Origin: Gammaproteobacteria bacterium
Lineage (GTDB): Bacteria > Pseudomonadota > Gammaproteobacteria > Xanthomonadales > SZUA-36
Assembly (NCBI GenBank): GCA_021772935.1
Contig: JAJFLA010000049.1
Span: forward strand, 124,001-188,000
Length of the DNA stretch: 64,000 bases
Direction: 5' to 3'
Shown here: positions 14,713 through 32,394 of the stretch, piece by piece
Layout of the letters: each line of letters starts with the position of its first letter
Position numbering within the stretch: the first letter of the stretch is position 1
The notes under the pieces: model-generated
What the model saw: only the letters and a program-made list of their open reading frames with translations
Database searches by the model: none
Told to the model about the DNA's origin: nothing
Position numbers and translations under genes: made by a program

Positions 14713-16965
14713 ATGACTTCAGCGCACAAAGCCGGACCGCTCAATATTGCCCAGCGGACGGATACGTTTCACCGTTGGCGAAGTCGTAAAGACCTGCTGG
14801 CCAAGAGAGTCATCGGTCTGGGTGGCTTGGTTGTGATTGCCGCGGTGTTATTGATTCTCTTTTATCTTATGTATGTGGTAACACCTTTGTTTCTGTCGGC
14901 AAAAATGTCACAAACAAGCATTGGTGGTAACCCGGACTGGGTAAACAACAGCACTGTTTTCCTGGCGATTGAAGAGCAGCAACAAGTTGCATTCAGAATT
15001 GATCAGAGTGGAATGGCGGCGTTTTTCAGTCTGGATGATTTGCGTGTGCTTGAATCGAACACGCTAACCCAGGACGGCAGGCAAGTTACGCTGGCGGCAG
15101 GCGACCAAGGCAATAGTGGGCTTGTGGCTGTGGCATTTGATGATGGTTATGTTAGTTTATTACAGCATCGTTACAATACTGATTTTTCCGCCGGTATCGA
15201 ACAACGAAAAATTATCCCATCACTTGATTTTCCTTACGGAAGCGACCGACGTTGGTTAATGCCTGATGGTGGCATCACCGGTTTGGCCTTGTCTGAAGGT
15301 GAATCAGAGTTGCTGTTGGCGGCCTCTGGAAGTGGTGGGCGGGTTCGGCTTGAGTGGAGTGCAAAACAGGAAAACTTTCTAAGTAGTGAGGTCAGCCTCG
15401 ATAGCTCGATCAAAATACTGGATGTAGATTTTGAGATCACGGCCATTACCGTAAGTGACGATCATCGCTGGTTGTATCTGGGTGATGAATCCGGGCGGGT
15501 CCACTTTATCCAGATAAGCGGAATGCAAGAAATACAGGCGATCCAGGTTTCGGATTCGGACATCAGCAGTATGAGTATGTTGTTGGGTGGTATATCGGTG
15601 TTGGCAGGTGATAGCAACGGGCATATTACGCAATTATTTCCGGTCCGGGATGAAGATCATCAATACAGACTGGAAGTGATAAGACGATTTAAAAACCAGC
15701 AGGTAGCGATCAGTCGGATTGTTCCAGAGCAACGTCGCAAGGGATTTATTGCAGTGGATGTGGATGGCACCCTGGCTGTTTATCACAGCACTGCCGGGCG
15801 ACAGGTATTACAACAGCAACTGCTGGGCGGTCTACCGTCGGCACTGGCACTGGCACCGCGAGCTGCGGGTTTGTTGGTACTCAATAAGGACGGTAGCGCC
15901 GACTTCATAGATATTGACAACGAGCATCCTGAAGTATCCTTTTCGTCCCTGTGGTCCAAAGTCTGGTATGAAAACTACAGCCAGGCTGAATATATCTGGC
16001 AGTCATCTGCTTCCAGCAATGAATTCGAACCCAAATTCAGTTTGACCCCACTGGCATTTGGAACACTCAAGGCGGCACTTTACGCGATGTTGTTTGCGTT
16101 GCCGTTGGCTCTGGCGGGCGCGGCTTTTACGGCGTACTTCATGTCACCGGCTCTACGCAGAATGGTCAAGCCAACGATTGAGATCATGGCTGCACTGCCG
16201 ACCGTTATCCTTGGTTTCCTGGCGGGTTTGTGGTTTGCGCCTTTTCTGGAAGAAAACTTGGCTGGAATGATGGTTCTGATGTTGGTAGTACCGGTCGGTC
16301 TGTTGCTTTTTGCATGGTTCTGGACCCAGGCTGGTTGGCGCATAAAAGATTATGTCGCTGAGGGTTGGGAACCGGTTTTGTTATTGCCAGTGCTGGTGGT
16401 TCTCGGCATTGCTGCGATCAAATTCGCGGGCCCATTTCAGGATTTGTTTTTTGCCGGTGATTTGCGTTTATGGTTGAACCAGGAAGCGGGTATTTCCTAC
16501 GACCAGAGAAACGCAATCGTAGTGGGTTGTGCAATGGGTTTTGCCGTGATTCCGACCATCTTCTCTATCGCAGAAGATGCTATTTATGGTGTACCAAAAA
16601 CACTTTCAGATGGTTCATTGGCATTGGGGGCTACGCCGTGGCAAACCATGGTCCGGGTTATATTGCCTACCGCCAGTCCAGGCATGTTCTCGGCCGTGAT
16701 GATTGGTCTTGGCCGGGCGGTTGGTGAGACCATGATTGTACTTATGGCTACCGGTAATACGCCGATCATGGATTGGAACCTGTTTGAGGGGATGCGTACC
16801 TTAGCGGCCAATATTGCCGTAGAGATGCCGGAGTCCGCCATGAACAGTTCGCACTATCGCATTTTGTTCCTGGCCGCATTGGTGTTGTTTTTGTTTACTT
16901 TTGTTGTCAATACCGGTGCTGAACTGATTCGCCAGCGACTGCGTGAAAAGTACAGCTCATTGTGA
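14713..16965 (+). CDS. pstC: Phosphate ABC transporter permease PstC (long form)
   Basis: 750 residues. An N-terminal TM helix (about 35-57) is followed by a long periplasmic region of beta repeats up to about residue 440 and then by the permease core with the binding-protein-dependent transport motif (SLALGATPWQTMVRVILPTASPG; FSAVMIGLGRAVGETMIVL). E. coli PstC is only about 320 residues; the long version is common in marine and environmental gammaproteobacteria. It forms the channel with PstA and PstB for high-affinity phosphate import. First gene of pstCAB-phoU, preceded by a Pho box; pstS is not in this operon but about 19 kb away. Confidence 0.93.
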   Translation: MTSAHKAGPLNIAQRTDTFHRWRSRKDLLAKRVIGLGGLVVIAAVLLILFYLMYVVTPLFLSAKMSQTSIGGNPDWVNNSTVFLAIEEQQQVAFRIDQSGMAAFFSLDDLRVLESNTLTQDGRQVTLAAGDQGNSGLVAVAFDDGYVSLLQHRYNTDFSAGIEQRKIIPSLDFPYGSDRRWLMPDGGITGLALSEGESELLLAASGSGGRVRLEWSAKQENFLSSEVSLDSSIKILDVDFEITAITVSDDHRWLYLGDESGRVHFIQISGMQEIQAIQVSDSDISSMSMLLGGISVLAGDSNGHITQLFPVRDEDHQYRLEVIRRFKNQQVAISRIVPEQRRKGFIAVDVDGTLAVYHSTAGRQVLQQQLLGGLPSALALAPRAAGLLVLNKDGSADFIDIDNEHPEVSFSSLWSKVWYENYSQAEYIWQSSASSNEFEPKFSLTPLAFGTLKAALYAMLFALPLALAGAAFTAYFMSPALRRMVKPTIEIMAALPTVILGFLAGLWFAPFLEENLAGMMVLMLVVPVGLLLFAWFWTQAGWRIKDYVAEGWEPVLLLPVLVVLGIAAIKFAGPFQDLFFAGDLRLWLNQEAGISYDQRNAIVVGCAMGFAVIPTIFSIAEDAIYGVPKTLSDGSLALGATPWQTMVRVILPTASPGMFSAVMIGLGRAVGETMIVLMATGNTPIMDWNLFEGMRTLAANIAVEMPESAMNSSHYRILFLAALVLFLFTFVVNTGAELIRQRLREKYSSL

Positions 16966-16975
16966 GGCTGGTCGC

Positions 16976-18634
16976 ATGAAATCATTCAATAAATGGATAG
17001 CGGATGGTACCCCCTGGGTATGGTTGAACGCCGCAGCGGTCAGTGCCAGTGTTTTGTTGGTTGTTGGTTTGTTATTACTGATAGGTGTTCGCGGTTTTAC
17101 ACATTTTTGGCCGCTGGAGATACAGGAAATTGTTTATTTGCAGGATAACGGGGAAGAAGTGGTTATTGCTGGTCAGATCCGTGAAGAAGAAAACGTAACA
17201 GCACAGCGGCTGCGTGAATCTGGTCTGGAAGTTGATGAAAACAAACAATTTGTGACCCGCTATCTGCTAAAAATTGGTAACCGTGATATTGGTGGTCAGG
17301 ATTTTCGCTGGATACTCGAGCCATCCATCCAGTCTATTAAAAAACCGCATAGCATGACCGTGTTTGAACGCGAGGAATGGGGGGTATTTATCGGCAGGTT
17401 GATTGCAGTTCGTGAAGCCGGTCAATTGCTCGGTAATGCAGATACCTGGGTAGATTTTCAGCAAAGACTTGAGCGCGCCAATGAACTGCGTGATGAAATC
17501 AATAAGTTGAAAAAAGGTAGCATTGGCACTGTCAACTACCGTCTTGAACGCTTGCGACTGAGGCAACGCAGTCTTGAGATCAAAGGCAAGCTTGCCCCGG
17601 TGAGTCTCGGTGACATAGAAACTGAACGTGAAGCATTGAAGGCAGAATACAAAGGGCTGGAAGAAGCGTTGGCACGTTTATATGCGAAATTGCAACGTGA
17701 TGCAGTTGTCGTGACCACCGCAGCTGGACAGGAACTCGAGTTACCGATGTCATCCATCGTTGCTGCGCATCGTCCCAACCAGATGGGTTTGATCGGGAAA
17801 ATTGGGCATTTCTTCCACAATATTTGGAAATTTGTTGCTGATGATCCGCGTGAGGCCAATACCGAAGGCGGTATATTTCCGGCCATATTCGGCACCGTGC
17901 TTATGGTCTTGTTAATGAGTGTGTTTGTAACGCCACTGGGTGTTGTTGCTGCGGTTTACCTGAAGGAGTATGCGCGCCAGGGATTATTTACACGGTTTAT
18001 TCGTATTGCTGTCAATAACCTTGCTGGTGTGCCATCGATTGTTTATGGCGTATTCGGGCTGGGTTTTTTTGTCTACACACTAGGTGGCAGTCTGGACCGC
18101 TTGTTTTTTCCGGAAGCTTTGCCAGCACCAACTTTTGGTACCGGTGGTCTGTTCTGGGCTTCGCTGACATTGGCTTTACTTACTTTGCCGGTGGTCATCG
18201 TATCGACCGAAGAGGGGCTTTCTCGAATACCTCGCAGTATTCGAGAGGGTAGCCTTGCTTTGGGCGCAACTCAATGGGAAACGCTGTGGCGAACGGTTTT
18301 ACCGATGGCCTCACCTGGCATCATGACTGGCCTGATCCTGGCAGTGGCAAGGGCAGCAGGTGAGGTTGCACCATTGATGTTGGTTGGTGTGGTCAAGCTG
18401 GCACCAGCCTTACCACTGGATGGTAACGCTCCGTTCCTGCACCTGGACAGAAAATTCATGCACCTTGGTTTTCATATTTATGATGTTGGTTTTCAAAGCC
18501 CGAATGTTGAAGCCGCAAGACCCCTGGTCTATGCAACCGCACTATTATTAGTCGTTGTCATTGTGCTTTTGAACCTGGTTGCTATCCAGGTACGCAACCG
18601 ATTGAGCGAAAAATACCGTGGATTGGAATCATGA
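16976..18634 (+). CDS. pstA: Phosphate ABC transporter permease PstA (long form)
   Basis: 552 residues from ATG 16976, 10 bp after the pstC stop; the frame is open further upstream but that would overlap pstC. N-terminal TM, a periplasmic/coiled-coil insert to about residue 290 ([19 protein letters not shown]-like), then the permease core with [20 protein letters not shown] and [19 protein letters not shown]. Like PstC it is much longer than the E. coli protein. It overlaps pstB by ATGA. Confidence 0.93.
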
Positions 18635-19440
18635 CTCAAAAAAACAAGATACAAGCTGGCGCAGTGCAACGAGTGCCGAACTTACATCCCACCGCAGTAA
18701 CGATTAACGATCTGGATCTTTACTATGGTAAAACGCAAGCATTGCAGCAGATTAACCTGAATATTCCTGCGAGTCAGGTAACCGCCTTTATCGGTCCAAG
18801 TGGTTGTGGTAAATCTACATTATTGCGATGTTTTAACCGTCTCAATGACCTGATAGATAGTTGCCGGATTAACGGTGAAATATTGCTCGACGGTCGTGAT
18901 ATTTATGCTGAGAATATCGATGTCGCCGAGTTGCGCAGAGAGGTCGGTATTGTTTTCCAGAAACCAAACCCGTTTCCCAAGTCTATTTATGAAAATGTGG
19001 CTTATGGTTTACGTATTCAGGGCATCAACAAACGCCGTCAACTTGATGAATCGGTCGAGTGGGCCTTAAAAGGTGCGGCCTTGTGGGATGAAGTAAAAAA
19101 CCGCCTGAATGAATCTGCGTTCAGCTTGTCTGGTGGTCAGCAACAGCGCCTGGTTATTGCCCGTGCGATCGCGGTACAACCAAAATTTATCTTGCTTGAT
19201 GAACCCTGCTCAGCGCTTGATCCTATTTCAACCCTGAAGGTAGAAGAATTGATTTCAGAGTTGAAATCACAATATACGATTATTATGGTCACCCATAATA
19301 TGCAACAGGCTGCACGGGTTTCTGACTATACTGCTTTTATGTATATGGGCGAGCTGATCGAATTTGGCACGACCGATCAGGTATTTACCAATCCACGCCT
19401 GAAAAAGACCGAGGAATACATCACAGGCCGTTATGGTTGA
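18631..19440 (+). CDS. pstB: Phosphate ABC transporter ATPase PstB
   Basis: 269 residues. Walker [10 protein letters not shown], PstB-specific FNRLNDLI, Q-loop [21 protein letters not shown], signature [14 protein letters not shown], Walker [17 protein letters not shown]-loop MVTHNMQQA. It powers phosphate import and, with PhoU, takes part in phosphate signalling to PhoR. Start overlaps pstA (ATGA). Confidence 0.96.
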
Positions 19441-19470
19441 TGGCCAGGTGCATTACACTAGGAGGCCTTT

Positions 19471-20199
19471 ATGAGTGATCTACACCTTGGCCAGCACATT
19501 TCCCGCCAGTTCAACGAAGAACTGGAAGATGTTCGCAGTAAAGTGCTGCATATGGGAGGCATTGTTGAAGAGCAACTGGCCAATGCGCTGCGGGTGCTGG
19601 TAAACGATGAGTCTGAGCTGGCTCGTATTGTCATCGATGCGGATGCCATTGTTAATTCGCTTGAAGTAGAGATTGATGAGGAATGCACCCGGATCGTAGC
19701 CCGGCGTCAGCCTGCCGCGACAGATTTACGTCTCGTCATGACGGTGAGCAAGACTATTAATGAACTGGAGCGTATTGGTGATGAGGCCAAACGGGTAGCT
19801 AAAATGTCCCGAAAAGATATGGACGGCGTGCTTCAGGATGACGTGCGTGTTGAACTGGCGCACATGGGTGAGTTGGTGCGTGAGATGTTACGTCAGGTGC
19901 TGGATGCTTTTGCACGTACTGATGTGGATACGGCTGTGCTGGTGGTCAAAGCGGACGCAAAAGTTGATAAAAGGTATAAAAAAATCATCAAGCAGCTTAT
20001 CGACCGAATGCGTGATGAGCCGGATGCAGTACCTGCTGTGATGAAGATTATGTGGGCGGTACGTTCACTGGAGCGTCTTGGTGATCGTTGCCAGAATATT
20101 GCTGAACATATTATTTACATGGTGTTGGGTACCGATATCCGTCACATCAAGCTGGATGATGTACTGGCTGAAATTGAGGCACAATCTGAACTGGAGTAA
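19471..20199 (+). CDS. phoU: Phosphate signalling regulator PhoU
   Basis: 242 residues, all helical, with two copies of the PhoU repeat: MGGIVEEQLANALRVLVNDE...DADAIVNSLEVEIDEEC and MGELVREMLRQVLDAFARTD...KADAKVDKRYKKIIKQL. It connects the Pst transporter to PhoR, keeping the kinase quiet when phosphate is plentiful. AGGAGG lies just before the ATG. Last gene of the pst operon, converging on the TrmB-like gene with only 21 bp between. Confidence 0.94.
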   Translation: MSDLHLGQHISRQFNEELEDVRSKVLHMGGIVEEQLANALRVLVNDESELARIVIDADAIVNSLEVEIDEECTRIVARRQPAATDLRLVMTVSKTINELERIGDEAKRVAKMSRKDMDGVLQDDVRVELAHMGELVREMLRQVLDAFARTDVDTAVLVVKADAKVDKRYKKIIKQLIDRMRDEPDAVPAVMKIMWAVRSLERLGDRCQNIAEHIIYMVLGTDIRHIKLDDVLAEIEAQSELE

Positions 20200-20220: not shown

Positions 20221-21114
20221 TTACCCACTCAGGATATTATCCAGTCTCTTTTTGTGCGGGACGGCGCTTTGTAGCAAAATTTCCATATCTTGCTGATTTA
20301 GAACGGTATTTAATAGAAACACATCTTGTTCTTTCATCAGTTTTTTAAGCTCTTCTGGTAGTTCTATTGTATCGGCTAAGTGTTTTAGTTTGTGGAAAAA
20401 GTGTTCTCGACTCAAGCCAACGTGAAGCACACAAGCGAGGTACAGGTCTTTGCTCCACATGGCTTGAATAACTTCGCTTAAATCACTATTAAACAGACAT
20501 ACAAGACTCTTTTTTCCATCAATGACCAGGTTAAGTTGCTCGGTTTTCCACAATTTTATCGCTCTGCCAGAGTGGAATGTTTTTACTTCATCGGCACCTT
20601 CTAAAGTACTTTCGTCATAAGACTGCAAGCAAACACTGACTCCACGCTTGATTGCTGCGGTTAAGTGGTCTTTTAAACAAGTCAGGATGGTTGGAAAGGC
20701 ATCAATAACAATCGCGAGCTGAGCGGAATCGATTGCGGTCTTGGCATACTGAATGGCCAGGGCTGCATTATCTATACGGTAGAAGCCCTCTTCGCTTTCT
20801 TTATAGCGGTTTTCATTGAGCAATTTTGAGGCTAAGGAACGCCTCTCCTGAAAAGCTGTATTTAATGAGGTCAGGAAAATTTCAGGCTCAACCGCGTGAC
20901 AGAGTTCTTTAGATGTTTTCTGGATCAGGACACCACCTAGCTCCGCTAATACCCGTACTGATTTATAAACATTTGCGGTGGCTTTATTGAGTAACTTGGC
21001 CAAGCGATAGGCAGTTACACCATCGGTGTGCAGCAAGAGCTCACAGTACACCTCAGCTTCAAGTGCATTCAAGCCAAGGTTTCTAAGTGTCTCAAGCAAC
21101 TGTTGTGAAATCAT
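20221..21114 (-). CDS. TrmB-family transcriptional regulator
   Basis: 297 residues from ATG 21114. An N-terminal winged helix (LLETLRNLGLNALEAEVYCELL; VTAYRLAKLLNKATANVYKSVRVL) matches the TrmB family, followed by a phospholipase-D-like effector domain (IQYAKTAIDSAQLAIVIDAF; IKLWKTEQLNLVIDGKKSLVCLF). The frame stays open to 21171, which would add NRT repeats encoded by a 9-bp tandem repeat; the ATG at 21114 has AGGA at proper spacing supplied by that repeat. The gene is divergent from the multicopper oxidase operon, so it is the natural candidate for its regulator. Looks AT-richer than the pst genes. Confidence 0.8.
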   Translation of the reverse strand: MISQQLLETLRNLGLNALEAEVYCELLLHTDGVTAYRLAKLLNKATANVYKSVRVLAELGGVLIQKTSKELCHAVEPEIFLTSLNTAFQERRSLASKLLNENRYKESEEGFYRIDNAALAIQYAKTAIDSAQLAIVIDAFPTILTCLKDHLTAAIKRGVSVCLQSYDESTLEGADEVKTFHSGRAIKLWKTEQLNLVIDGKKSLVCLFNSDLSEVIQAMWSKDLYLACVLHVGLSREHFFHKLKHLADTIELPEELKKLMKEQDVFLLNTVLNQQDMEILLQSAVPHKKRLDNILSG

Positions 21115-21149
21115 GTTTGTCCTGTTTGTCCTGTTTGTCCTGTTTGCCT
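21114..21149. repeat. 9-bp tandem repeat over the regulator's ribosome-binding region
   Basis: Three perfect copies of TGTTTGTCC (21114-21140) and a fourth degenerate one (21141-21149). On the minus strand each unit carries AGGACAAA, and the last copy provides AGGA before the ATG at 21114. Because the unit is 9 bp, copy-number change keeps the upstream frame but alters how many Shine-Dalgarno-like sites precede the start. Confidence 0.85.
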
Positions 21150-21171
21150 GGTTGAAGTTTGTTCGATGCAC

Positions 21172-21558: not shown

Positions 21559-23319
21559 ATGAAGAGACGCAAAGTATTGAAAATGGGGGCTCTGCTAACG
21601 GTACCTGCTGTTTTTGGTGGTGCCAAAGTAGCTAATGCCCAGCTATGTCGGCCAACGAGTTACAGAAGTCTTGAAAGTGAGCCGGATAGCCCACCGGTAA
21701 CGGCTTACACCGAGCCATTGTTTATTCCCCCCAAGTTACATGATGTGGGTGTCGGTGCACTGAATCCGCCGATCGATCCAAACAGACATCAGCGTTACGA
21801 TGAATTTGAAGCTGAGAAATTTTATGAGCAGCACATCGTAGAAGGTGTATGGAATTACCACTCCGATCTGTCTGCACTAGCTCCCGCACAAGCAGGGGCT
21901 CCAGCGGGTGCGGGCTCAATTGCATGGATGTACAGTGGCAGCATTACTGGACAAGCGACAACACCGGGACCAACTCTGGTCGCCCGTTATGGTGAGCCGG
22001 CGTTTGTTCGTCGCCACAACGATTTGCCCTTATCCGAAGATGTTGTGATGCCGATTGGTTATCCGGCAATTTCCACCCATTTGCATAATGCACATACGGC
22101 ATCTGAAAGTGATGGTTACCCGATGGATTTTGCCACCCCGGGGGAGTTCTGGGAGCACCATTACGCGATGTATTACGCCCGTAATGATTCAAATGAGGCA
22201 TTGGCCAGCTTGTGGTATCACGATCACATGATCGATTTTACCGCGACCAATGTTTACGCCGGCTTATCGGGCATGGCAATTTTTTACGATGATATTGATT
22301 CAGGTGATGAAACAGACCCGAATCCCCAAGCACTAAATCTGCCCGGTAATATGCAATTTGGAGATGATGGAGCAGGTAACTCACTTGGTTTTGATATCTC
22401 AATGATTTTACATGACGTGCGCTTTACTGCCGACGGTAACCCGACCTACAACGTATTTGATACCGATGGTCATCTGGGTGATCTAATAACGGTTAATCGT
22501 AAGGTTCAGCCGTTCATGAACGTCAAGCGGCGGAAATATCGTTTCCGGATTTATGACGGTGGCCCGTCACGATTCTATGAACTTGGCTTGTACAAGACTT
22601 CTGATCGGGACACACCAGTGAGCTTCGACATCATTGCGAATGACGGCAACCTGTTGGAAGAGCCTTTCTCAGGCGCAACCAGTGTCATCATCGGGCCCGC
22701 TAATCGCAACGATATTATCGTTGATTTTTCACAGTTCAATGCAGGGGATGAAGTAGAGATACTGAACCTGATGGAACAGGTTAACGGTCAAGGCCCAACC
22801 GGCAGGCGCCTGACGGGTAATGACCGGATGAAAGTTCTTCAGTTCAGAGTAGAGGAAATGGGGTCTGGTGAAGTAGATGCCAGTCAAATTCCGGCAGCAT
22901 TACGACCGTTGCCATCCATTCCACCACAAGAGGTGCTGGATACGCTGGTACATCGCGAATGGGTATTTGACCACGATATGGGTTTGTGGACGGTCAATGG
23001 TCAATTTATGGATCCGTCGGTTGTTTCTGCTGCACCTAAACAGGGTACGGCTGAGGTCTGGACATTCCGCAATGCTGGCAGTTCATGGGCGCATCCATGT
23101 CATGTGCATTTTGAAGAGTGCCAGGTGCTTGAGTGGAACGGAAAGAAACCAACCGGTGTTCTTAAATCCAGAAAAGACGTGATGACGCTGGGTCCAAATG
23201 ATGTGGTCAAAGTGTTCTACCGCTTTGATGATTTTGTTGGACGTTACGTTATTCACTGTCATAACAATGTGCACGAAGACAATGCCATGATGTTGCGTTG
23301 GGATATCACCCCAGGCTAG
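21559..23319 (+). CDS. Tat-exported multicopper oxidase
   Basis: 586 residues from ATG 21559 with GGAGGG just upstream. The leader MKRRKVLKMG...GGAKVANA has the twin-arginine motif and an ANA cleavage site, so the folded copper enzyme would be exported by Tat. All four copper motifs are present: THLHNAHTASESDG, WYHDHMID, HPCHVHFEECQVL and HCHNNVHEDNAMM, giving the T1 His-Cys-His-Met set and the trinuclear centre. Sequence style is nearest the CotA/bilirubin-oxidase-like three-domain oxidases. Substrate could be Cu(I), Mn(II), phenolics or another reductant. It heads a three-gene unit with a Sco-like and an unknown secreted protein. Confidence 0.92.
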   Translation: MKRRKVLKMGALLTVPAVFGGAKVANAQLCRPTSYRSLESEPDSPPVTAYTEPLFIPPKLHDVGVGALNPPIDPNRHQRYDEFEAEKFYEQHIVEGVWNYHSDLSALAPAQAGAPAGAGSIAWMYSGSITGQATTPGPTLVARYGEPAFVRRHNDLPLSEDVVMPIGYPAISTHLHNAHTASESDGYPMDFATPGEFWEHHYAMYYARNDSNEALASLWYHDHMIDFTATNVYAGLSGMAIFYDDIDSGDETDPNPQALNLPGNMQFGDDGAGNSLGFDISMILHDVRFTADGNPTYNVFDTDGHLGDLITVNRKVQPFMNVKRRKYRFRIYDGGPSRFYELGLYKTSDRDTPVSFDIIANDGNLLEEPFSGATSVIIGPANRNDIIVDFSQFNAGDEVEILNLMEQVNGQGPTGRRLTGNDRMKVLQFRVEEMGSGEVDASQIPAALRPLPSIPPQEVLDTLVHREWVFDHDMGLWTVNGQFMDPSVVSAAPKQGTAEVWTFRNAGSSWAHPCHVHFEECQVLEWNGKKPTGVLKSRKDVMTLGPNDVVKVFYRFDDFVGRYVIHCHNNVHEDNAMMLRWDITPG

Positions 23320-23364
23320 TGAAGGCAATGATAAACAAATAAGTGAATTGTTAGGAGAAACCTT

Positions 23365-23994
23365 ATGAAAGACAGAAGAAAACTTCTTGCTTCACTAGCT
23401 GTTGCACTGCCAGCCATGGCCGTTGCGAGTGCTAGAGCAAGTTCCGCACCTGAAAATAAAAGTGCTTTTAAAGCGTGTCCTCGTGGGATTACAGGACCGA
23501 CAGTCGATCGTTTCCCACAAGCGGTTGTAACAGACCAAAATAAGCAAAAAGCATGGTTTTATGAAGAATTAATCCATGACAAGCTGGTCTTGGTCAACTT
23601 CACATCAGTTAGTGGTGAAAAGCATTATCCAATCATCAGTAATATGGTAAAAGTTCAAAACATGATTGGTGACCGGTTGGGTAAAGATGTTTTTATCTAC
23701 ACGATTTCAACTGATCCACATCACGATACGCCTGAAAGCCTGAAGGAACTTGCTGATGCGCATGGCGCAAAGTGGCAATTCCTGACCGGTGAGCCAGAAG
23801 ATGTTCGAGCCATATTGGGTGGCTTTGGCATTCGCGGCAGCATCAATGGATTATCCTGGGTGGGCAATGAAAAAACAGGTAGATGGATGACTAAAGCCAG
23901 TCGTCAGCATCCTCTGTATATTGCTGAAGCCGTTGCACGATTAAGTACGGGTAAACACCATAAACCGTTCTTAGTCGACATGCATAGCGTGTGA
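23365..23994 (+). CDS. Sco-like thioredoxin-fold protein lacking the copper ligands
   Basis: 209 residues with an export signal that looks Tat-like (KDRRKLLASLAVALPAMAVASARA). The thioredoxin/Sco fold is clear: WFYEELIHDKLVLVNF, NMVKVQNMIGDRLGKDVFIYTISTDPHHDTPESLKELA, WQFLTGEPEDV. Where Sco proteins have CxxxCP, this one has SGEKHYP, and the later conserved histidine region reads GSINGLSWVGNE, so both cysteines and the histidine are gone. It cannot bind copper as Sco does or act as a thiol reductase. It lies 45 bp after the multicopper oxidase and just before the 723-aa protein, so it may be a structural partner or chaperone. Confidence 0.85.
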   Translation: MKDRRKLLASLAVALPAMAVASARASSAPENKSAFKACPRGITGPTVDRFPQAVVTDQNKQKAWFYEELIHDKLVLVNFTSVSGEKHYPIISNMVKVQNMIGDRLGKDVFIYTISTDPHHDTPESLKELADAHGAKWQFLTGEPEDVRAILGGFGIRGSINGLSWVGNEKTGRWMTKASRQHPLYIAEAVARLSTGKHHKPFLVDMHSV

Positions 23995-24008
23995 GGGGAG
24001 AAATAGAA

Positions 24009-26180
24009 ATGAAATTTATTAATACAAGAGCATTGGCAGTAACCCTGGCGACGGCCTCACTCGCCGTTTCAGGGTCAGTGCAAGCATTGCCCGATAGCCC
24101 AACACATACACACGTTGACCCTATTGGTGTGGGTGCTTGCGAACTGGTAACTGATAACTGGTTGCCACCTCTCGGTGCGAATCCGGGTAGCATTCCCGGT
24201 TGGCTTGGACACCCTTGTGCACAGCCTCGGCCCAACCATGGCGGCTTCTTTGGTTCCATGCAAACAACGGTGGGTGACACAACCTTTGTGGTAACACCAG
24301 AGGGCCAGTTTGACCCGGTATCACCTTTTGATCAGCCACCAGGGACTAATTTTATCAATACGGTTAACCATAACCTGGTTGACTTTAATGGTGATGAAAT
24401 GCCGAATACCCAGCCCTCCGCGCTAGGTAGTAGTGAGTATATGCTGCACGATGGTCCGGTCACCAGGATACCTATTAATCCGACCAACCCGGCACAGGAT
24501 CTGGATTCAATAATTGATGCCTTAGAGCTGGCAGCGACAGGTGAGAAGTCCAAGAAGTCCAAGAAGTCCAAGGATATTAAAGTCAAAGCCAAATATATTG
24601 ATTTTGCGATCAATATCCTCGAAGGCAACCCCATCAAGGACCGTGCTTACAGTGGGTTCCCGATGCTGCATTACAATGGCCCCAACAAATGGGCCGAAGT
24701 CCAACCGATTTACGATGAAGAGGGTGTGAAAATCGGCGGTAACCTGGATGTTGATATGATCTATTTTGATCAACACATCGAGGCCAATGTTGCTTTGATT
24801 GATCCGTCCCTGGTCCAGGATGTTCCTTGGACAATTACGTACCGTGTCAACATTCTAAGTGGTGGTCTTGAAGATTTCTCACCCATGGTGATGAATTTTG
24901 ACAGAACACCTGCAGATACGGTTGGGCCGATGCATGCATCTATGGATCAGTCATATTTTCCGATGCTAGAGGAAGGTAACGAGTACACGGTGAAAATTAA
25001 GGAAACCCTGGGTAAATACTACAACCTGACTTACACCTGGGGTTGGCGTATTCACCCTCCGCGTGTTCAGGTGACGGAAAATGCGACCAAAATGGCGGGT
25101 GGTAAGACATTGCTAGCACACGAAGTTGATGTTTTTGGTGCAGACCCTATGGGTAGCGAAGCCAATAAATTGGCGGCAATTGCAAAAATTGGTGACCTGT
25201 CTCCAGCCAAACGCATGTGGAATCTCTTTCATGAATTACGTGGGCCTGCGGCTGGCAACAGCGGCAAGTACAAAGACTTGAAGGTAGATCCGACTGAACT
25301 TGCTGCGATTAGTGCAGACCTGCGTGCGGCTTATCTCGATTGGATGGATCGCACCAAGTTGCCCGCAGGTGTCGTAGCTGATCCAAATGCCACCATCACA
25401 TTATTGTATGTCAATAACACAATTTACGGCAGTCGCCAGGGTATTACAGGTACTGGCGTCAGTGGTGATGACAGTGGTCAGGGTCCAGCGGCATTCAAGG
25501 GTGTTTGTAATGGTTGTGCCCATGATTGGAATATTCGTCCTTACGTCTACAACGTCACTTTATATAATGGAGATAATTTCCCTCATGGTTATATGAATGT
25601 TGACTTTGGTGGCTCTCGAGGCTGGGAAAATCAATTTCAGGACACTGATCCAACCACTGCCTTGGCAGCACACGATCATACTGAGCCAACGGTGATCGAG
25701 GGCAGCTACTTTACTATCGTTGATGATGTTTTATTGGATACTACGCCCAACCTTGGCAAACAGGCTTTGAGGAATGTACCCGGCACGATCAACGGCGGCG
25801 GTGGCGTCGACCAGATATTTGGTGATGATGTTGACTACGGTATACATGAGTTGATATCAAACGACAGGGTCTTCCCGATGAATTCTGGTGGTTCTGAAGA
25901 GTTTCTTGAGCCAACTCCGCGTGAATTGAATGCCGACGGCACTATCAATGATAATGCTGAGCAACAATTTGGGTCAGGTTGTTTCTTCACTTTTGGCAGG
26001 CAACACTCATGGCCAAACGCAGGTGGTCCCTGGGGTGGGATTATGGTGCCGCCGGTTACCGGAGGTGTGCCTGGAACGCACAAGGTGGAAATTACCTATA
26101 ACTTTGAACCCAGCAGAAGATTGAAAATTTATCAATTCGATCCTTTGCATCATGATGTTGCCGTTTACTCACTTCACTGA
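24009..26180 (+). CDS. Large secreted protein of unknown family, oxidase operon
   Basis: 723 residues from ATG 24009 (GGGGAG upstream; a GTG at 23991 in frame is less likely). A Sec-type signal (MKFINTRALAVTLATASLAVSGSVQA) is followed by a long sequence with no family I recognise. Visible features: a His-rich N-terminus (SPTHTHVDP), a KSK triplet repeat near residues 180-188, TWGWRIHPPRVQV, CNGCAHDW (CxxC without heme His), AAHDHTEPTVIEGSYF, FTFGRQHSWPNAGGPWGG and a C-terminal FDPLHHDVAVYSLH. The scattered His/Asp and beta-rich character could suit a periplasmic metal-binding or substrate-binding protein. Its place after an oxidase and a ligand-less Sco suggests it works with them. Confidence 0.8.
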   Translation: MKFINTRALAVTLATASLAVSGSVQALPDSPTHTHVDPIGVGACELVTDNWLPPLGANPGSIPGWLGHPCAQPRPNHGGFFGSMQTTVGDTTFVVTPEGQFDPVSPFDQPPGTNFINTVNHNLVDFNGDEMPNTQPSALGSSEYMLHDGPVTRIPINPTNPAQDLDSIIDALELAATGEKSKKSKKSKDIKVKAKYIDFAINILEGNPIKDRAYSGFPMLHYNGPNKWAEVQPIYDEEGVKIGGNLDVDMIYFDQHIEANVALIDPSLVQDVPWTITYRVNILSGGLEDFSPMVMNFDRTPADTVGPMHASMDQSYFPMLEEGNEYTVKIKETLGKYYNLTYTWGWRIHPPRVQVTENATKMAGGKTLLAHEVDVFGADPMGSEANKLAAIAKIGDLSPAKRMWNLFHELRGPAAGNSGKYKDLKVDPTELAAISADLRAAYLDWMDRTKLPAGVVADPNATITLLYVNNTIYGSRQGITGTGVSGDDSGQGPAAFKGVCNGCAHDWNIRPYVYNVTLYNGDNFPHGYMNVDFGGSRGWENQFQDTDPTTALAAHDHTEPTVIEGSYFTIVDDVLLDTTPNLGKQALRNVPGTINGGGGVDQIFGDDVDYGIHELISNDRVFPMNSGGSEEFLEPTPRELNADGTINDNAEQQFGSGCFFTFGRQHSWPNAGGPWGGIMVPPVTGGVPGTHKVEITYNFEPSRRLKIYQFDPLHHDVAVYSLH
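24546..24572 (+). repeat. In-frame 9-bp tandem repeat (KSK x3) in the unknown secreted protein
   Basis: Three perfect copies of AAGTCCAAG encode KSK-KSK-KSK, a strongly basic linker between two parts of the protein. Copy-number change would be in frame. Confidence 0.85.
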
Positions 26181-26197: not shown

Positions 26198-26227
26198 AGA
26201 TGCCACATCGGTTTCGATGTGGCATCT
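26198..26227 (+). terminator. Strong hairpin terminator after the oxidase operon
   Basis: AGATGCCACATCG and CGATGTGGCATCT pair perfectly over 13 bp around a GTTT loop, followed by TTGCTTGT. It lies 17 bp after the stop of the 723-aa protein and separates the oxidase operon from cusBA. Confidence 0.75.
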
Positions 26228-26285: not shown

Positions 26286-27599
26286 ATGAGACTGAAATCA
26301 CTTACCATTATCCTGTTTTTTATCGTTGTGGGCGCACTTGCACTGAGCCACAGCGGTGCGATTAACTCGTTTGTTAGCGAGCAAAGTCCTTCTGCGCGAG
26401 AAAGCCATGTTGTGGCGTCCAGCGATAACAACAAATATGTATGCCCGATGCATTCGCACATTGTTTCGCATGAAGCAGATGAGTGTCCAATCTGTGGTAT
26501 GGAATTGGTTATCAACACCAGCAGGCAACCTGATGCTTTAGGTGAAAGGACCACAGGAATAGAAAGTTCACAACAAGCAGAAGTTTACCCTGAAGTCAGG
26601 ATCTCGCCCTTAGTTGTGCATAATTTGGGTATTCGCAGCGAACTTGTTGAGCGTGGCAATCTTAGTCACCGTATTGAAACAATTGGCAAAATCACCCGTG
26701 TGGACCCGATGGCACGGAGTCGTATAACTTCCCCGATCAGCGGCACTATTATTGAAATGGTTGATAAATATAGTGGTGCGAAAGTCCAACAGGATGAGTT
26801 TCTATTTTCAGTTGCATCAGAAGAGTTGTTCGCTTTGGAAAAAGCCTTTCAACAAGCTTTTATGCAGGGTGATAAACCGACTGCCAGTGGCATGATTCCG
26901 AAACTGGTATCCATGGGGCTTGATGCCCACCAGGTAGCGCAGTTACAGAATGGTGCTGAGCCCATATTCCCAGCGAAAGTATTCGCCCGGGAAGACGGCT
27001 TTGTTTTTACCCGAAGAGGCGGTGAGGGTGAACCTGTCACTTCTTCGTTCACGGTATTTAACCTCGGTGGGAATTACCAGGTTATTGAAGTCACGGTTGA
27101 AATATTTGAGCGTCAATGGGATTTGGTTAAAGAGGGTCAAAAGGCCTCAATGCAACTGCGTAATCTGCCGGGAAAAATATTCTATGGCACTGTTGAAAGA
27201 GTTGATGAGCCGGTTGGTTATACCACACGAGCGCTGGAATCCCGCCTCAAGTTTAAAACAGACCACCAGGGTATGACACAAAGTACATTTGCAAGGGTGA
27301 TTATTGATGGTAAGTCCAAACAGGACGTATTGCTGGTGTCGCGCGATGCAGTGATCAGAACGGCCGCTGGTGAGCGCGTGGTAACACTCACTGAGGATGG
27401 TCGTTTTCAGCCTGTTAGTGTGACTATAGGGGAAGAAGCCAACGGTAGAATTGAAATTGTTACCGGTTTGCTTGAAGGGCAAAGAGTCGTTGTATCCGGC
27501 CAATTTCTACTCGACTCAGAGAGCAACCTGATGGCTGGTTTAAACAGAATCTCGAATTCAGAACCCCCCAACCCCATACGCGAAGACCAGAAGCATTGA
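26286..27599 (+). CDS. cusB: CusB-like RND periplasmic adaptor with heavy-metal-binding domain
   Basis: 437 residues, membrane-fusion protein of a heavy-metal RND pump. An N-terminal hydrophobic anchor or signal is followed by a heavy-metal-binding module YVCPMHSHIVSHEADECPICGMEL (about 50-74) with paired Cys, Met and His residues, then the adaptor body: barrel and lipoyl halves (ARSRITSPISGTIIEMVD, VFAREDGFVFTRRGGEGEPV) and the membrane-proximal region (GEEANGRIEIVTGLLEGQRVV). The extra domain is common in Cus/Sil-type adaptors of environmental bacteria. It is 10 bp upstream of the cusA-like gene. No outer-membrane channel gene follows. Confidence 0.9.
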   Translation: MRLKSLTIILFFIVVGALALSHSGAINSFVSEQSPSARESHVVASSDNNKYVCPMHSHIVSHEADECPICGMELVINTSRQPDALGERTTGIESSQQAEVYPEVRISPLVVHNLGIRSELVERGNLSHRIETIGKITRVDPMARSRITSPISGTIIEMVDKYSGAKVQQDEFLFSVASEELFALEKAFQQAFMQGDKPTASGMIPKLVSMGLDAHQVAQLQNGAEPIFPAKVFAREDGFVFTRRGGEGEPVTSSFTVFNLGGNYQVIEVTVEIFERQWDLVKEGQKASMQLRNLPGKIFYGTVERVDEPVGYTTRALESRLKFKTDHQGMTQSTFARVIIDGKSKQDVLLVSRDAVIRTAAGERVVTLTEDGRFQPVSVTIGEEANGRIEIVTGLLEGQRVVVSGQFLLDSESNLMAGLNRISNSEPPNPIREDQKH

Positions 27600-27609
27600 G
27601 CAAGCTGAG

Positions 27610-30600
27610 GTGATCTCTCGCGTTATTGATTGTTCGATCAACAACCGCTTGTTGATTTTAGTTGCAGCAGTAATACTGAGTATTTGGGGTGCATACTCTG
27701 TCACCTCCATCCCACTCGATGCCATTCCAGATCTGTCTGATGTGCAAGTCATTGTACGCACCAGTTATGCTGGACAATCGCCTCAGGTTGTTGAAGACCA
27801 GGTTACCTATCCGTTATCAACCGCCATGTTATCGGTTCCAGGTGCTGTCACCGTCAGGGGCTACTCCTATTTTGGGGATTCTTTTGTATATGTAATTTTT
27901 TCGGATGACACAGATCTGTATTGGGCACGAACACGTGTGCTGGAGTATTTAAACCAGGTTTCAGATCAGTTACCCAACAACGCAAAACCCAAGTTAGGTC
28001 CTGATGCAACCGGAGTGGGTTGGGTTTATCAATACGCTTTGGTCGATAGGAGTGGTCAGCATGATTTAGCCGAATTACGTAGCTTGCAAGACTGGTTATT
28101 GAAATTTGAATTACAAACCATTCCAGGCGTTGCCGAGGTCGCAACGGTTGGTGGCATGGTCAAGCAGTATCAGGTGGTCGTCGACCCGAATAAGTTGCGC
28201 GGTTACTATCTCACCCTGGCAAATGTTGCTACCGCTATTGCTGAGTCAAACCAGGAGATTGGCGGCTCATCTATCGAATTATCTGAGGCTGAATACATCG
28301 TTCGAATCAAGGGATACTTGAAAAGTGTTAATGACCTGAAACTGGTCAGTGTACCCACAGTTCGACGCAGAACATCCCTGTCTTCCGTGTTGTTGAGTGA
28401 CGTTGCTCAAGACATTCGTCTGGGTCCAGCAATGAGGCGTGGGCTTGCAGACCTCGATGGTGAAGGAGAGGTGGTGGGGGGCATCGTAGTCATGCGCTCA
28501 AACCACAACGCACTTGCTACCATTGAAGCCGTTAAAACAAAGCTCAATGAGCTTAAACTGAGTCTGCCTGACGGTGTGGAGATAATCGAAACATATGATC
28601 GTTCCGCGCTGATTGAAAGAGGTGTGACAACGCTAAGCCACCGACTCATTGAAGAGTTGTTGGTTGTGATTGCAGTTTGTGCCTTATTCCTGCTCCATTT
28701 TCGATCTTCATTGGTCATCACTATTAGTTTGCCCATCGGCATCCTGGGTGCTTTTGCGTTGATGAGAGTGCAGGGTATTAATGCCAATATCATGTCTCTG
28801 GGTGGGATCGCAATAGCCATCGGTGCGATGGTAGATGCCAGCATAGTGATGATTGAAAATGTACATAAACATATCGAGAGATCGGTAATATCAACGGGGG
28901 AATCTGATCAAGGCAATGTCCGATATCTGACACGTATTGACATTATAAAAAATGCTGCAAAAGAAGTTGGGTCTCCATTGTTTTTCTCCTTATTGATTAT
29001 CACCTTCAGTTTTCTACCAATTTTTACGCTGGAAGCCCAGGAGGCTAGATTATTCTTACCGTTGGCATATACAAAAACCTATGCGATGGCGGTTGCAGCA
29101 GGCTTGTCAATTACGCTGGTGCCGGCACTGATGGCCTACTTGATCAAAGGCAAAATCCATAAGGAAGAAGATAATCTGTTAAGCAAGTTTTTTGTCAGAT
29201 TATATATGCCTGTTATAAAAACAGCCTTGTTAAAACCGGGAATCACCTTATTGCTTGTTGGCTTGTTGGTGCTCTCAGTAATTTGGCCGTATTCACAGCT
29301 TGGACGCGAGTTTATGCCGGAAATGGACGAGGGTGATCTGCTGTATATGCCAACAACCTTGCCAGGCATTTCTATTGGTAAGGCACGGGAAATACTCCAG
29401 CAGACCGATCGTTTGATCAAGACCATCCCGGAAGTAAAACGTGTATTCGGGAAGGTTGGACGAGCCGAATCTGCCACAGATCCCGCACCACTTACGATGC
29501 TGGAAACGACCATTCAACTCAAGCCGAAAGACCAGTGGCGTGAGGGTATGAATCTGGAAAAACTTAAGTTGCTGCTCGATCAACGGGTAAAAATCCCGAG
29601 TCTGCATAATGTCTGGCTGATGCCGATAAGGACTCGAATCGATATGCAATCTACTGGTATTAATACCCCCATTGGTATCAAAATTTCCGGGCCCGATTTA
29701 AAAACGATTGAGACCATTGGTAAAGATGTTGAGGCTGTCATTAAAGGCCTGAAGGGGACCAGGACCGTATACTCAGAAAGGGTTATGGGTGCCCGCTATA
29801 TTGATATCGATATCGATCGTGATTCGGCAGCGCACTATGGCTTGAGTATTAAAGAAATCGAAGATGCTGCGAGTATTGCCATCGGTGGTAAAAATTTAAC
29901 TACAACGATTGAAGGTAGGGAGCGGTATTCGGTCAACCTCAGGTACCCGCAGGCGATGAGGGATTCCATCGCTAATTTAAAATCTCTACAGCTGATTGCG
30001 ACAGAAGATACACATGTGCAGCTCCAGGACCTGGCCGAAATCACCATTGTTGAAGGTCCACCGATCATAAAAAGTGAAAATGCCAGGATGAATGCCTGGG
30101 TCTATATCACCAATGATGGCGGAGACATCGGCAGTTATGTTGATTCAGCCAAACAAGCATTGCTTCAGCAAGTAAAAATACCCACTGGTTACAGCCTTAA
30201 TTGGGCCGGGCAGTACCAATATATGCAGCGGGCTGAAAAGCGAATGCAAACCATTATTCCAATTACGTTATTAATCATCGTAATGCTGCTCTATCTTAGT
30301 TTTAGAAACCTGACAGAAGCAATGATGGTGATGTTTTCAGTTCCGCTGGCACTGGTCGGCGGTTTTTGGCTGCTCTATATGCTTGGGTTCAATATTTCGG
30401 TTGCTGTTGCTGTCGGCATGATAGCTTTGGCTGGTGTTGCTGCAGAGTTTGGCGTGGTTATGCTGGTCTACCTGAAAGAGGCGGTGGCGCGCAATAAGCC
30501 AACAACGAATGAAGACTTGATGGCGGCGGTGATTGAAGGCGCGGTACACAGGGTGAGACCAAAAGCAATGACGGCCGCCGTTATTATTGCCGGGCTGTTA

Positions 30601-30762
30601 CCCATCATGCTGGGCTCCGGGACCGGTTCAGAAGTTATGCACCGTATTGCCGCGCCAATGATTGGAGGAATGATTACTGCGCCATTGGTATCAATGGTAC
30701 TGATACCTGTGCTTTATTTTTTATGGCAAAAAAATAGTAACCCTCAAAAACCAGACCAATGA
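27610..30762 (+). CDS. cusA: CusA-like heavy-metal efflux RND pump
   Basis: 1050 residues from GTG 27610, the usual size for HME-RND pumps. Twelve TM helices with the family motif AIAIGAMVDASIVMIENVHK and a DUF-free large periplasmic domain. Three methionines correspond to the Cu(I)-binding triad of E. coli CusA (M573, M623, M672): M580 in LLYMP, M630 in APLTMLETT and M679 in RIDMQSTG, with the same 50 and 49 residue spacing. This argues for Cu(I)/Ag(I) rather than Co/Zn/Cd export. It works with the adaptor upstream; the outer-membrane partner must come from elsewhere in the genome. Confidence 0.94.
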   Translation: MISRVIDCSINNRLLILVAAVILSIWGAYSVTSIPLDAIPDLSDVQVIVRTSYAGQSPQVVEDQVTYPLSTAMLSVPGAVTVRGYSYFGDSFVYVIFSDDTDLYWARTRVLEYLNQVSDQLPNNAKPKLGPDATGVGWVYQYALVDRSGQHDLAELRSLQDWLLKFELQTIPGVAEVATVGGMVKQYQVVVDPNKLRGYYLTLANVATAIAESNQEIGGSSIELSEAEYIVRIKGYLKSVNDLKLVSVPTVRRRTSLSSVLLSDVAQDIRLGPAMRRGLADLDGEGEVVGGIVVMRSNHNALATIEAVKTKLNELKLSLPDGVEIIETYDRSALIERGVTTLSHRLIEELLVVIAVCALFLLHFRSSLVITISLPIGILGAFALMRVQGINANIMSLGGIAIAIGAMVDASIVMIENVHKHIERSVISTGESDQGNVRYLTRIDIIKNAAKEVGSPLFFSLLIITFSFLPIFTLEAQEARLFLPLAYTKTYAMAVAAGLSITLVPALMAYLIKGKIHKEEDNLLSKFFVRLYMPVIKTALLKPGITLLLVGLLVLSVIWPYSQLGREFMPEMDEGDLLYMPTTLPGISIGKAREILQQTDRLIKTIPEVKRVFGKVGRAESATDPAPLTMLETTIQLKPKDQWREGMNLEKLKLLLDQRVKIPSLHNVWLMPIRTRIDMQSTGINTPIGIKISGPDLKTIETIGKDVEAVIKGLKGTRTVYSERVMGARYIDIDIDRDSAAHYGLSIKEIEDAASIAIGGKNLTTTIEGRERYSVNLRYPQAMRDSIANLKSLQLIATEDTHVQLQDLAEITIVEGPPIIKSENARMNAWVYITNDGGDIGSYVDSAKQALLQQVKIPTGYSLNWAGQYQYMQRAEKRMQTIIPITLLIIVMLLYLSFRNLTEAMMVMFSVPLALVGGFWLLYMLGFNISVAVAVGMIALAGVAAEFGVVMLVYLKEAVARNKPTTNEDLMAAVIEGAVHRVRPKAMTAAVIIAGLLPIMLGSGTGSEVMHRIAAPMIGGMITAPLVSMVLIPVLYFLWQKNSNPQKPDQ

Positions 30763-30772: not shown

Positions 30773-31426
30773 ATGAAGGTTGTTTTCTTTACCTGTGGAT
30801 TAGTTTTAATGGCTCTATTTGCTTTTTCGACAAAGCTTAGTGCAAATGAGCCTTTCGCGGAAAACGCACATTATAAAAGAGTGTCTTCCGGAAATACGGC
30901 GACAATTGGACATTCGAACAAAATTGAAGTGATTGAGTTTTTTCTCTATTCCTGCTCACATTGTTATGAGCTCGAACCAAAATTAAAAAACTGGCTTGAT
31001 ACTAATAAAGACAAAGTCACTTTTAAGCGGGTCCCAGCGGTTATTGCCCCAAGCTGGGTGACCTTGGCTAAAACCTATTATATTGCAGAAAAACTGGGCG
31101 TTCTGGATCAGACCCATGAGGCCTTATTCAAGTCGATTCATGTCGACAAGAAAGTCTATTTAAATGAATATAAATTAACAGAATTCTTCTCAGCTTATGG
31201 TATTGCACCAAATGTTTTTTTACACGAATTTAATTCAAAAGATATCGTTGATAAGGTGAGTGACGCGCGCATATTATCCGTCAAATATGCTTTTAGGGGT
31301 GTACCCGCCATCGTTATTAATGATGAGTTCAAAACCGCGCCATTTTATACAAAGGATCAAGAGCAAATGTTGGAGGTCATGGACTACTTACTGGCAAAAA
31401 TAACCACAGCCAAGGCTTCTGACTAG
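30773..31426 (+). CDS. DsbA-like periplasmic thiol:disulfide interchange protein
   Basis: 217 residues with a Sec signal (MKVVFFTCGLVLMALFAFSTKLSA). Thioredoxin fold with helical insert; the active site is CSHC in FFLYSCSHCYELEPKL and the cis-proline loop is FRGVPAIVIND. The CxHC form is that of the DsbA oxidases. It starts 10 bp after the cusA-like stop, so it is in the copper operon; copper damages disulfides, and a dedicated oxidase for secreted Cys proteins of this cluster is plausible. No dsbB is adjacent. Confidence 0.88.
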   Translation: MKVVFFTCGLVLMALFAFSTKLSANEPFAENAHYKRVSSGNTATIGHSNKIEVIEFFLYSCSHCYELEPKLKNWLDTNKDKVTFKRVPAVIAPSWVTLAKTYYIAEKLGVLDQTHEALFKSIHVDKKVYLNEYKLTEFFSAYGIAPNVFLHEFNSKDIVDKVSDARILSVKYAFRGVPAIVINDEFKTAPFYTKDQEQMLEVMDYLLAKITTAKASD

Positions 31427-31506: not shown

Positions 31507-32394
31507 ATGGATGGATTGAAGTTTAGTAAAAAGCAGTCTAAAACGCTGGTTATCACATTAGCCTTGATGATTTGTGGATTTAGTCACAACGTGATGGGTA
31601 AAACTTTCAACGCCTACCCAGGACAATACACAGCAAATTTAATAGAAGTGGAAGCTACCAATATTATTCGATTTTCAGTCGAGGTCTGGACTGGCTATCC
31701 CAAACATTTGCGTATTACTTTAGCCGGTGTTTCTGCGCCGTCGGTCGATTCCGATGCACCGAAGTGTGAATTGGCTTTGGCGCAAGAGGCTTATGAATTC
31801 ACAAAAGACTACATGAGCAAAGCCAAGGATATAAAAGTTACAAACATTTTTATGGAGAACACTCAACAGACTGAAGGGGTGGCTGGTATCAATACCAAGA
31901 CGAGTAGCCTGGCGACAGTACTGATTAACAAGGGTTTTGCTCGTTCTAGCAATGAACATGCCGATGAGCCCTGGTGCGTGGATGAGGTGCTTAGCACAGA
32001 AAAAACTGAAAACGCCGAAATTGCTGTAATAAGCGGTCCAGTTAAAAAACCCGAAACCACTACCGGGTTTATGCAGGAAATCACTGAAGTCCGGGTGCAT
32101 GAAGGGCCTAATCGTAGCGGCGAAGAAGTTTATGAATTTCGTTGTAAAGGTTGCCATGAGAAGAACACGCAGGGTGCGCCAATGCCAACTGATAATTTTG
32201 CCTGGACGGAGCGCTTAAATAAGGGCTTTGCGGTGCTGATGGAACATTCAATGAACGGCTATAACAATTATTTGATGCCACCCAAAGGCGGTTGTCGGGA
32301 TTGTAATGAAGTAGAAATTCGTGGCGCTGTGATTTTTATGTTGGAGTCTAGTGGTATCAAATTAGCGGAAGGACGCGCAACAAGAGTCAATTAA
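31507..32394 (+). CDS. SNase-like domain fused to cytochrome c5-type heme domain
   Basis: 295 residues, secreted (hydrophobic stretch at about 13-32). Residues about 38-160 have the OB-fold pattern of staphylococcal-nuclease-like domains (LRITLAGVSAPS, LATVLINKGFAR), but the active-site positions of SNase (the acid of GDT, the E after the DAP motif and the second R) seem replaced, so catalysis is unlikely. Residues about 200-295 are a cytochrome c5-like domain: heme site CKGCH (213-217), axial methionine in YLMPPKGGC, and the extra CRDC pair typical of c5. Electron transfer in the periplasm is likely; the fused domain may bind a partner or metal. It follows the DsbA-like gene by 80 bp. Confidence 0.82.
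   Translation: MDGLKFSKKQSKTLVITLALMICGFSHNVMGKTFNAYPGQYTANLIEVEATNIIRFSVEVWTGYPKHLRITLAGVSAPSVDSDAPKCELALAQEAYEFTKDYMSKAKDIKVTNIFMENTQQTEGVAGINTKTSSLATVLINKGFARSSNEHADEPWCVDEVLSTEKTENAEIAVISGPVKKPETTTGFMQEITEVRVHEGPNRSGEEVYEFRCKGCHEKNTQGAPMPTDNFAWTERLNKGFAVLMEHSMNGYNNYLMPPKGGCRDCNEVEIRGAVIFMLESSGIKLAEGRATRVN

Follow-up and report, generated by a model that had tools for sequence, protein, structure and literature searches.

The iodide oxidase genes and the window trio

The iox cluster of Iodidimonas comprises six genes, ioxA to ioxF, in the same orientation (PMC9415286). IoxA is a 62-kDa multicopper oxidase (MCO) with CotA, CueO, CumA and CopA as distant relatives; IoxB, IoxD and IoxF belong to the SCO1/SenC class, and the functions of IoxC (71 kDa) and IoxE were called unclear (PMC9415286). 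The iodide-oxidizing enzyme of Iodidimonas and of Roseovarius sp. A-2 contains IoxA and IoxC, that of Iodidimonas contains copper and zinc, and the purified enzyme (IOX), whose iodide oxidation is O2-dependent, also oxidizes 2,2'-azinobis(3-ethylbenzothiazoline-6-sulfonate) (ABTS) and phenols (PMC9415286). Copper raises the production of iodide oxidase (PMC5928188). Relatives of IoxA have been reported in Gammaproteobacteria and Nitrospirae (PMC9415286) and homologues of ioxA and ioxC in some Nitrosomonas (PMC12335899). Here we describe a trio of genes, coding for an MCO, a Sco-like protein and a 723-aa protein, in a 64,000-nucleotide stretch of DNA (the window, G000:C44:124001-188000) from a gammaproteobacterial genome of 3.96 Mb in 56 contigs.

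The trio lies on the plus strand and consists of the genes for the 586-aa IoxA-like MCO (21559..23319), the 209-aa IoxB-like Sco-class protein (23365..23994) and the IoxC-like 723-aa protein, which by eye has a Sec-type leader (24009..26180). The open reading frames (ORFs) at 21559-26180 were confirmed as three genes in one direction with short gaps (45 bases between the MCO and Sco-like genes, 14 between the latter and the 723-aa gene), and all three starts are preceded by good ribosome sites (by eye). As in the IOX cluster, the first three genes, running in the same direction, code for an MCO, a Sco-class protein and a protein of about 70 kDa (PMC9415286): the MCO has all four copper regions, the second gene is of the SCO1/SenC class, and the third codes for an unfamiliar protein of around 71 kDa (63.8-81.0 kDa in 11 members of its family). 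We think it probable that the trio is homologous to ioxA, ioxB and ioxC, which code for the core of the iodide-oxidizing enzyme, an assignment made from gene order, protein class and size. A preliminary description of this DNA, made from the sequence, had held that a match of the trio to a described system would count against its interpretation; ioxABC provides such a match in order, class and size, subject to direct sequence comparison (PMC9415286).

The copper motifs of the window MCO are intact (HLH174, WYHDH219, HPCHVH512 and HCHNNVHEDNAM566) and its leader contains the sequence RRKVLK, typical of twin-arginine translocation (Tat), both as had been described. It matched the Pfam families Cu-oxidase_2 (E 2.1e-14) and Cu-oxidase_3, its closest PDB match was bilirubin oxidase (E 4.9e-56), and its mass minus 28 leader residues is 62.2 kDa. 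The four motifs are kept in all ten trio MCOs examined, nine of which also passed a simple Tat pattern; the eleventh (L029) was excluded from the motif count because its frame is split.

Properties of the two partner proteins

The preliminary description had characterized the second protein as having the Sco fold without its copper residues, and this was borne out. The protein matched SCO1-SenC (E 8.6e-10) and has G, Y and I in the alignment columns where canonical Sco proteins carry C, C and H. None of the 11 trio proteins has any of these ligands, and thus none shows the CxxxC plus distal His of Sco copper chaperones, whereas all 11 canonical comparators, drawn from the same searches, have the complete set; in L026 and L030 a His stands one column off the distal-His column. 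Pfam was run on three of the 11 trio proteins, and besides the window protein SCO1-SenC was matched by that of L010 (E 9.2e-6) and, with 18.5 bits and below the cut-off of 22.8, by that of L027 (E 0.0021). The genome scan for SCO1 also matched the trio Sco-like proteins of four other genomes (G066, G185, G496 and G756), and it gave four further SCO1-class matches in the window genome, one of them under the cut-off. In the Sco tree the 11 ligand-less proteins fell on one side with support of 91/87, which is below the mark that the tool sets for firm support.

A feature unmentioned in the preliminary description is an RR leader of the Tat type on the window Sco-like protein. The pattern was present in nine of the 11 trio Sco-like proteins; that of L010 fails it, and that of L026 starts behind a run of N. 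Comparison of the Sco-like genes of the window and L006 gave a nonsynonymous divergence (pN) of 0.147 against a synonymous divergence (pS) of 0.807, the synonymous sites being saturated, and with this ratio the ligand-less protein appears to be maintained by selection. Among the MCO-Sco sets read, ligand loss is special to the trio, since the comparators keep the ligands and the three Sco proteins found on plasmids show CxxxC. The loss argues that IoxB, at least in these relatives, does not deliver copper.

The third protein had been said to belong to no recognizable family. The window protein matched no family in Pfam (over the cut-off) or NCBIfam and nothing in the PDB at E under 1, and in this sense the statement stands; it needs amending in that the protein is probably the IoxC of the published ioxABC (PMC9415286). 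Twelve family members were aligned (window, L006, L007, L008, L009, L010 and L026-L031), L008, which appears identical to contig G185:C106, being counted once. None of the 12 had a convincing Pfam match, relaxing the Pfam threshold to E 10 gave no cupredoxin, and PDB sequence searches returned nothing or one chance match at E 1.3. Seven residues are invariant in all 12 members: H349, D522, H526, D711, H714, H715 and H723 (window numbering), the last of which is the C-terminal residue, as every member of the family ends in His. Masses minus 28 leader residues were computed for 11 members, L009 not being among them, and include 75.8 kDa for the window protein, 73.5 for L010, 71.0 for L027, 71.1 for L028 and 69.5 for L029. 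By eye, the L006 member appears to be a lipoprotein whose linker consists of Gly-Lys-Asp repeats.

Structure prediction of the window 723-aa protein by AlphaFold with five sequences was useless, with a predicted local distance difference test score (pLDDT) of 37. With the same family members the compact relative L009 gave a pLDDT of 56 and a predicted template modeling (TM) score of 0.64, one model of the five being clearly better than the others. The Foldseek matches to this model all had E above 0.001: the best was rusticyanin (E 5.8e-3, probability 0.85), azurin and AcoP also matched weakly, and no listed TM-score exceeded 0.39. Thirteen of the best 50 matches were cupredoxins or laccase, and roughly half were chains of MHC class I or MICA, plainly due to chance. 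For the poor model, 11 of the 50 listed matches were of the cupredoxin type, all at E above 0.3, and a viral structure library gave no match under E 0.001. No Cys or Met was present at the positions judged by eye for a cupredoxin site. Profile comparison of the family with the MCO and with the Sco alignment gave no match; neither did comparison with a small cupredoxin set, which was powerless because its positive control, the MCO domains, failed too. We treat the cupredoxin likeness, which comes from a predicted model, as a lead only.

Distribution, gene arrangements and interpretation

The order MCO, Sco-like gene, 723-aa family gene is kept in 11 of the 12 loci that carry the 723-aa family, and the co-occurrence of the three proteins that the preliminary description proposed to check was thereby found. 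Only L009 departs from it: this contig of 6.3 kb, from an Acidobacteriaceae metagenome-assembled genome, has a lone 537-aa member (L009:3775-5388), accompanied by neither an MCO nor a Sco-like gene, and near it an ORF that by eye resembles a transposase. Counting the window genome itself, the family was carried by seven of the 398 sampled genomes of the order and by three of the 398 sampled genomes of the phylum. MCO matches above 200 bits came from exactly the seven carriers among the 398 order genomes, the next best reaching 149.6 bits. Nine genomes of the same genus had no match to the family, which is therefore sporadic; this suggests gain by transfer or frequent loss. In searches for signs of mobility the family was not found in viral contigs, nor in plasmids with three different members as query. 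A dedicated extracytoplasmic oxidation system in which the MCO has the other two proteins as partners, as had been envisaged, is supported by the conserved order in 11 of the 12 loci and by the presence of oxidase and 723-aa family in the same seven of the 398 genomes. The copper-handling role suggested together with it is upheld for the window arrangement only, because a CusBA-type pump adjoins the trio there.

Behind the trio, the loci show two ARRANGEMENTS: type A, with cusB and cusA, and type B, with a canonical Sco gene. Type A is represented by the window, L006, L007, L008 and L030. A gene for a glutamine cyclotransferase separates trio and cusBA in L006 and L007, together with two further ORFs in L007, and in L008 the 723-aa gene and cusB adjoin without a spacer. 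In the four type A loci where the DNA extends far enough a DsbA-like gene comes next. The five type B loci (L010, L027, L028, L029 and L031) resemble the IOX cluster in having a canonical Sco after the trio, at the place of ioxD (PMC9415286). In the three followed further (L010, L027 and L031) the Sco gene is followed by a gene for a cytochrome c protein at the place of ioxE; a periplasmic-binding domain over the cut-off was found in that of L031 only. No cusBA was seen directly behind the trio in the five type B loci. The contig of the remaining trio locus, L026, ends just behind the trio. In a tree of the MCOs, from which the split L029 was left out and into which 15 of 23 other MCO loci were entered, type A and L026 formed one clade (100/99) and type B another (98/99); the tree leaves the order in which the two types join relative to the 1240-aa MCOs unsettled. 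Beyond the type B cluster of L031 we noted a gene for a PhoX-like secreted protein of 790 aa (L031:2114-4486; by eye).

In the window itself, the place of ioxD-F in the IOX cluster is taken by cusB, cusA, a dsbA-like gene and a SNase-like/cytochrome c gene (PMC9415286), all on the plus strand. The unit had been thought to end after three genes, but same-strand genes continue to 32394. The CusB-like membrane fusion protein (26286..27599; HlyD_D23, E 8.5e-28) has a heavy-metal-binding domain (HMBD, E 9.2e-12) with the motif CPMH...CPICGM. The CusA-like RND pump (27610..30762) scored 1244.8 bits against E. coli CusA (residues 1-1039) and 496.1 against ZneA. Three methionines of CusA have a relay role. 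In the alignment the window pump keeps all three, in LLYMP, LTMLET and RIDMQST, and with this and its CusA-level similarity it is of the CusA type. Among the type A loci the Pfam metal-binding domain and the pump methionines were checked in the window only. Next come a DsbA-like periplasmic thioredoxin with a CSHC motif (30773..31426; DSBA, E 8.6e-11) and a fusion of an N-terminal SNase-like domain (by eye) with a monohaem cytochrome c, CKGCH (31507..32394; Cytochrome_CBB3, E 3.5e-8). Only the cytochrome part of the fusion matched Pfam, the SNase-like domain having no match. In L006 and L030 the two parts are separate genes, whereas they are fused in the window. At least 171 other genomes matched the fusion query, the listed matches covering the cytochrome c part; among the matches listed for the 299 genomes scanned the SNase-like domain was found only in the trio carriers G000, G185 and G066.

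Several observations weigh against equating the trio with the iodide oxidase genes. Behind the window trio there is no ioxD, ioxE or ioxF, and we therefore regard the locus as an iox core and not as a full ioxABCDEF cluster; in the five type B loci no second canonical Sco, corresponding to ioxF, was seen. IoxB was described by its likeness to copper-binding Sco proteins and may bind copper, whereas the trio proteins lack the ligands (PMC9415286). The mass of the window IoxC-like protein is 75.8 and not 71 kDa, masses in its family vary from 63.8 to 81.0 kDa, and its homology to IoxC was likewise assigned by order, class and size. Finally, no iodine-related features were seen in the window, where the trio adjoins a copper pump.

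That pump invites an explanation of the trio as a copper-detoxification module, in which the MCO would oxidize Cu(I) as CueO or CutO does, with the 723-aa protein as its partner or copper donor, and CusBA would expel Cu(I). The presence of cusB and cusA in all five type A loci, in L008 without a spacer, speaks for it, as does the precedent of cutFOG in Rhodobacter capsulatus, where the oxidase CutO requires a co-encoded partner, CutF (PMC8456105). The Cu(I)-detoxifying MCO is accompanied there by CutF and CutG, and the abstract names no Sco-like or 723-aa member (PMC8456105). Against the module, the trio of the five type B loci leads into a canonical Sco gene, and cusBA was not seen directly behind it. 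That PF07732 matches no other protein in the window genome than this MCO is in its favor, but PF07732 may overlook a divergent MCO and a genome search with PF00394 says little because it missed even the window MCO. With 19 Met in 586 residues and no methionine-rich insert seen in the MCO, and with a second CusA-type pump, 60% identical, elsewhere in the genome, we consider the copper module unlikely.

The type B loci recall instead the mnxG operon of P. putida GB-1, which codes for an MCO, a beta-propeller protein, two Sco proteins, an ABC-binding protein with a cytochrome c domain and SurA (PMC11409713). Like the mnxG/mcoA operons they combine an MCO with Sco genes (MCO, Sco-like, 723-aa family, Sco), and where mnxG has a cytochrome c plus binding-protein gene, three of them have a cytochrome c protein (PMC11409713). 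This protein is distantly related, mostly over its cytochrome c part, to those of L096 and L097 (E 9e-6 to 4e-16), two clusters called Mnx-like by gene content only. It is nevertheless very improbable that the trio is a Mn(II)-oxidizing system, a small-MCO counterpart of mnxG: the mnxG/mcoA operons have a much larger MnxG-type MCO, a beta-propeller and SurA (PMC11409713), whereas the trio MCO has 586 aa and not about 2000, the 723-aa protein matches no beta-propeller family and no SurA was noticed. Unlike the trio proteins, the aligned Sco proteins of Mnx-like and large-MCO clusters keep their ligands, and one genome (G186) holds both a trio (L029) and a separate Mnx-like cluster (L096). A general secreted phenol laccase with no dedicated inorganic substrate would fit the bilirubin oxidases as nearest solved structures and the action of purified IOX on ABTS and phenols (PMC9415286), but a strict and rare three-gene association is unusual for such an enzyme and the named substrate of the matching system is iodide; we give this explanation hardly any credence.

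If the trio is the core of an iodide oxidase, the MCO (IoxA) would oxidize iodide, and probably phenols as well, through its type 1 copper and hand the electrons on to O2, with I2 or HOI and water as products. The second subunit of the oxidase would be the 723-aa protein (IoxC), whose invariant histidines may hold the zinc of the enzyme or shape the substrate site. Since the copper-carrying residues of Sco are absent from the Sco-like protein (IoxB), it most likely serves not as a carrier but as a partner for assembly or holding, using the same Tat export as the MCO. In the window, the CusBA-type Cu(I) pump, the DsbA-like protein and the cytochrome c would replace the Sco genes ioxD and ioxF; the type A helpers probably manage the copper of the oxidase and the thiol or oxidative damage from I2 or HOI.

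Somewhat short of an even chance, in our estimate, is a broader interpretation of the iox core as a portable oxidase whose partners are former copper proteins: IoxB a ligand-less Sco turned structural or maturation subunit, IoxC possibly a degenerate cupredoxin with a His-rich, perhaps zinc-holding C-terminal site. This oxidase would have been joined by two helper sets, one a canonical Sco with cytochrome c, the other, in Gammaproteobacteria, an island of Cu(I) pump, DsbA-like protein and cytochrome c. In the literature searched, which did not extend to most subscription papers, no description was found of a ligand-less IoxB, of a CusBA pump combined with an iox core, or of the invariant C-terminal His motif of IoxC. 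Should the assignment be true, the oxidation of iodide, a part of the iodine cycle that is poorly understood, could be traced in Gammaproteobacteria by a rare three-gene signature, and the family alignment names the residues to examine in IoxC. Some of the trio-carrying Gammaproteobacteria presumably come from vents and the subsurface, judging by their record names.

Flanking features and other MCO-Sco neighborhoods

Between the ioxC-like and cusB-like genes lies a hairpin of 13 pairs on the plus strand (26198..26227), a possible terminator or attenuator, which had been described as strong and as closing the unit. The hairpin is real in that it folds better than all 200 shuffled sequences (z -5.98), but its T tail is short, and a consensus scan of the region as a whole counted 13 terminator-like sites where shuffles had 11.3, which is no clear excess. 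The divergent TrmB-like regulator facing the trio (20221..21171, minus strand) was also confirmed (Pfam TrmB, E 6.4e-10). BLAST against the ORFs of 11 related loci found no relative, and for this reason it was dropped as a member of the conserved unit and is taken as a local neighbor only. Directly upstream of it the window contains a block of phosphate uptake genes (12615-20199), recognized by eye as coding for a PitA-like protein, a PhoU-like protein, two permeases, a PstB-like protein and PhoU.

Other MCO genes with nearby Sco genes were encountered in the same searches. Genomes G054 and G137 have an MCO of 1240-1261 aa followed by a fusion of Sco and cytochrome c, its tail resembling PCuAC (by eye), and G020 has the same pair, its MCO starting at a contig edge and lying in two frames. 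A related Sco-cytochrome c fusion is present in G186 (L095), and G186 and G039 have Mnx-like clusters. In L092 (665-5799), L093 (7140-12349) and L094 (1-3691), large MCOs, about 1250 aa long and extended at the C terminus by 400 aa, precede a Sco-cytochrome c fusion that by eye likewise has a tail like PCuAC; these are possibly mcoA-like Mn oxidase pairs.

Plasmids of Skermanella (pSM-3), Limimaricola and Paraburkholderia resemble the trio loci in carrying an MCO with a nearby Sco gene; unlike the trio proteins, the three plasmid Sco proteins are canonical, with CxxxC visible. Scanning the proteins of the plasmid MCO-Sco neighborhoods with a hidden Markov model (HMM) detected no member of the 723-aa family. 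In Skermanella mucosa pSM-3 (L098:6929-11454) an MCO gene is followed, in the order of the trio, by one for a canonical Sco and one for an Ig-like protein of 618 aa; the 618-aa protein, which gave no match to the family HMM, is perhaps a different partner in the same place. A plasmid of Limimaricola variabilis from a vent plume (L100:1-8792) carries an MCO and Sco-cytochrome c pair beside a very large gene of the peroxidase family, a possible metal- or halide-oxidation island.

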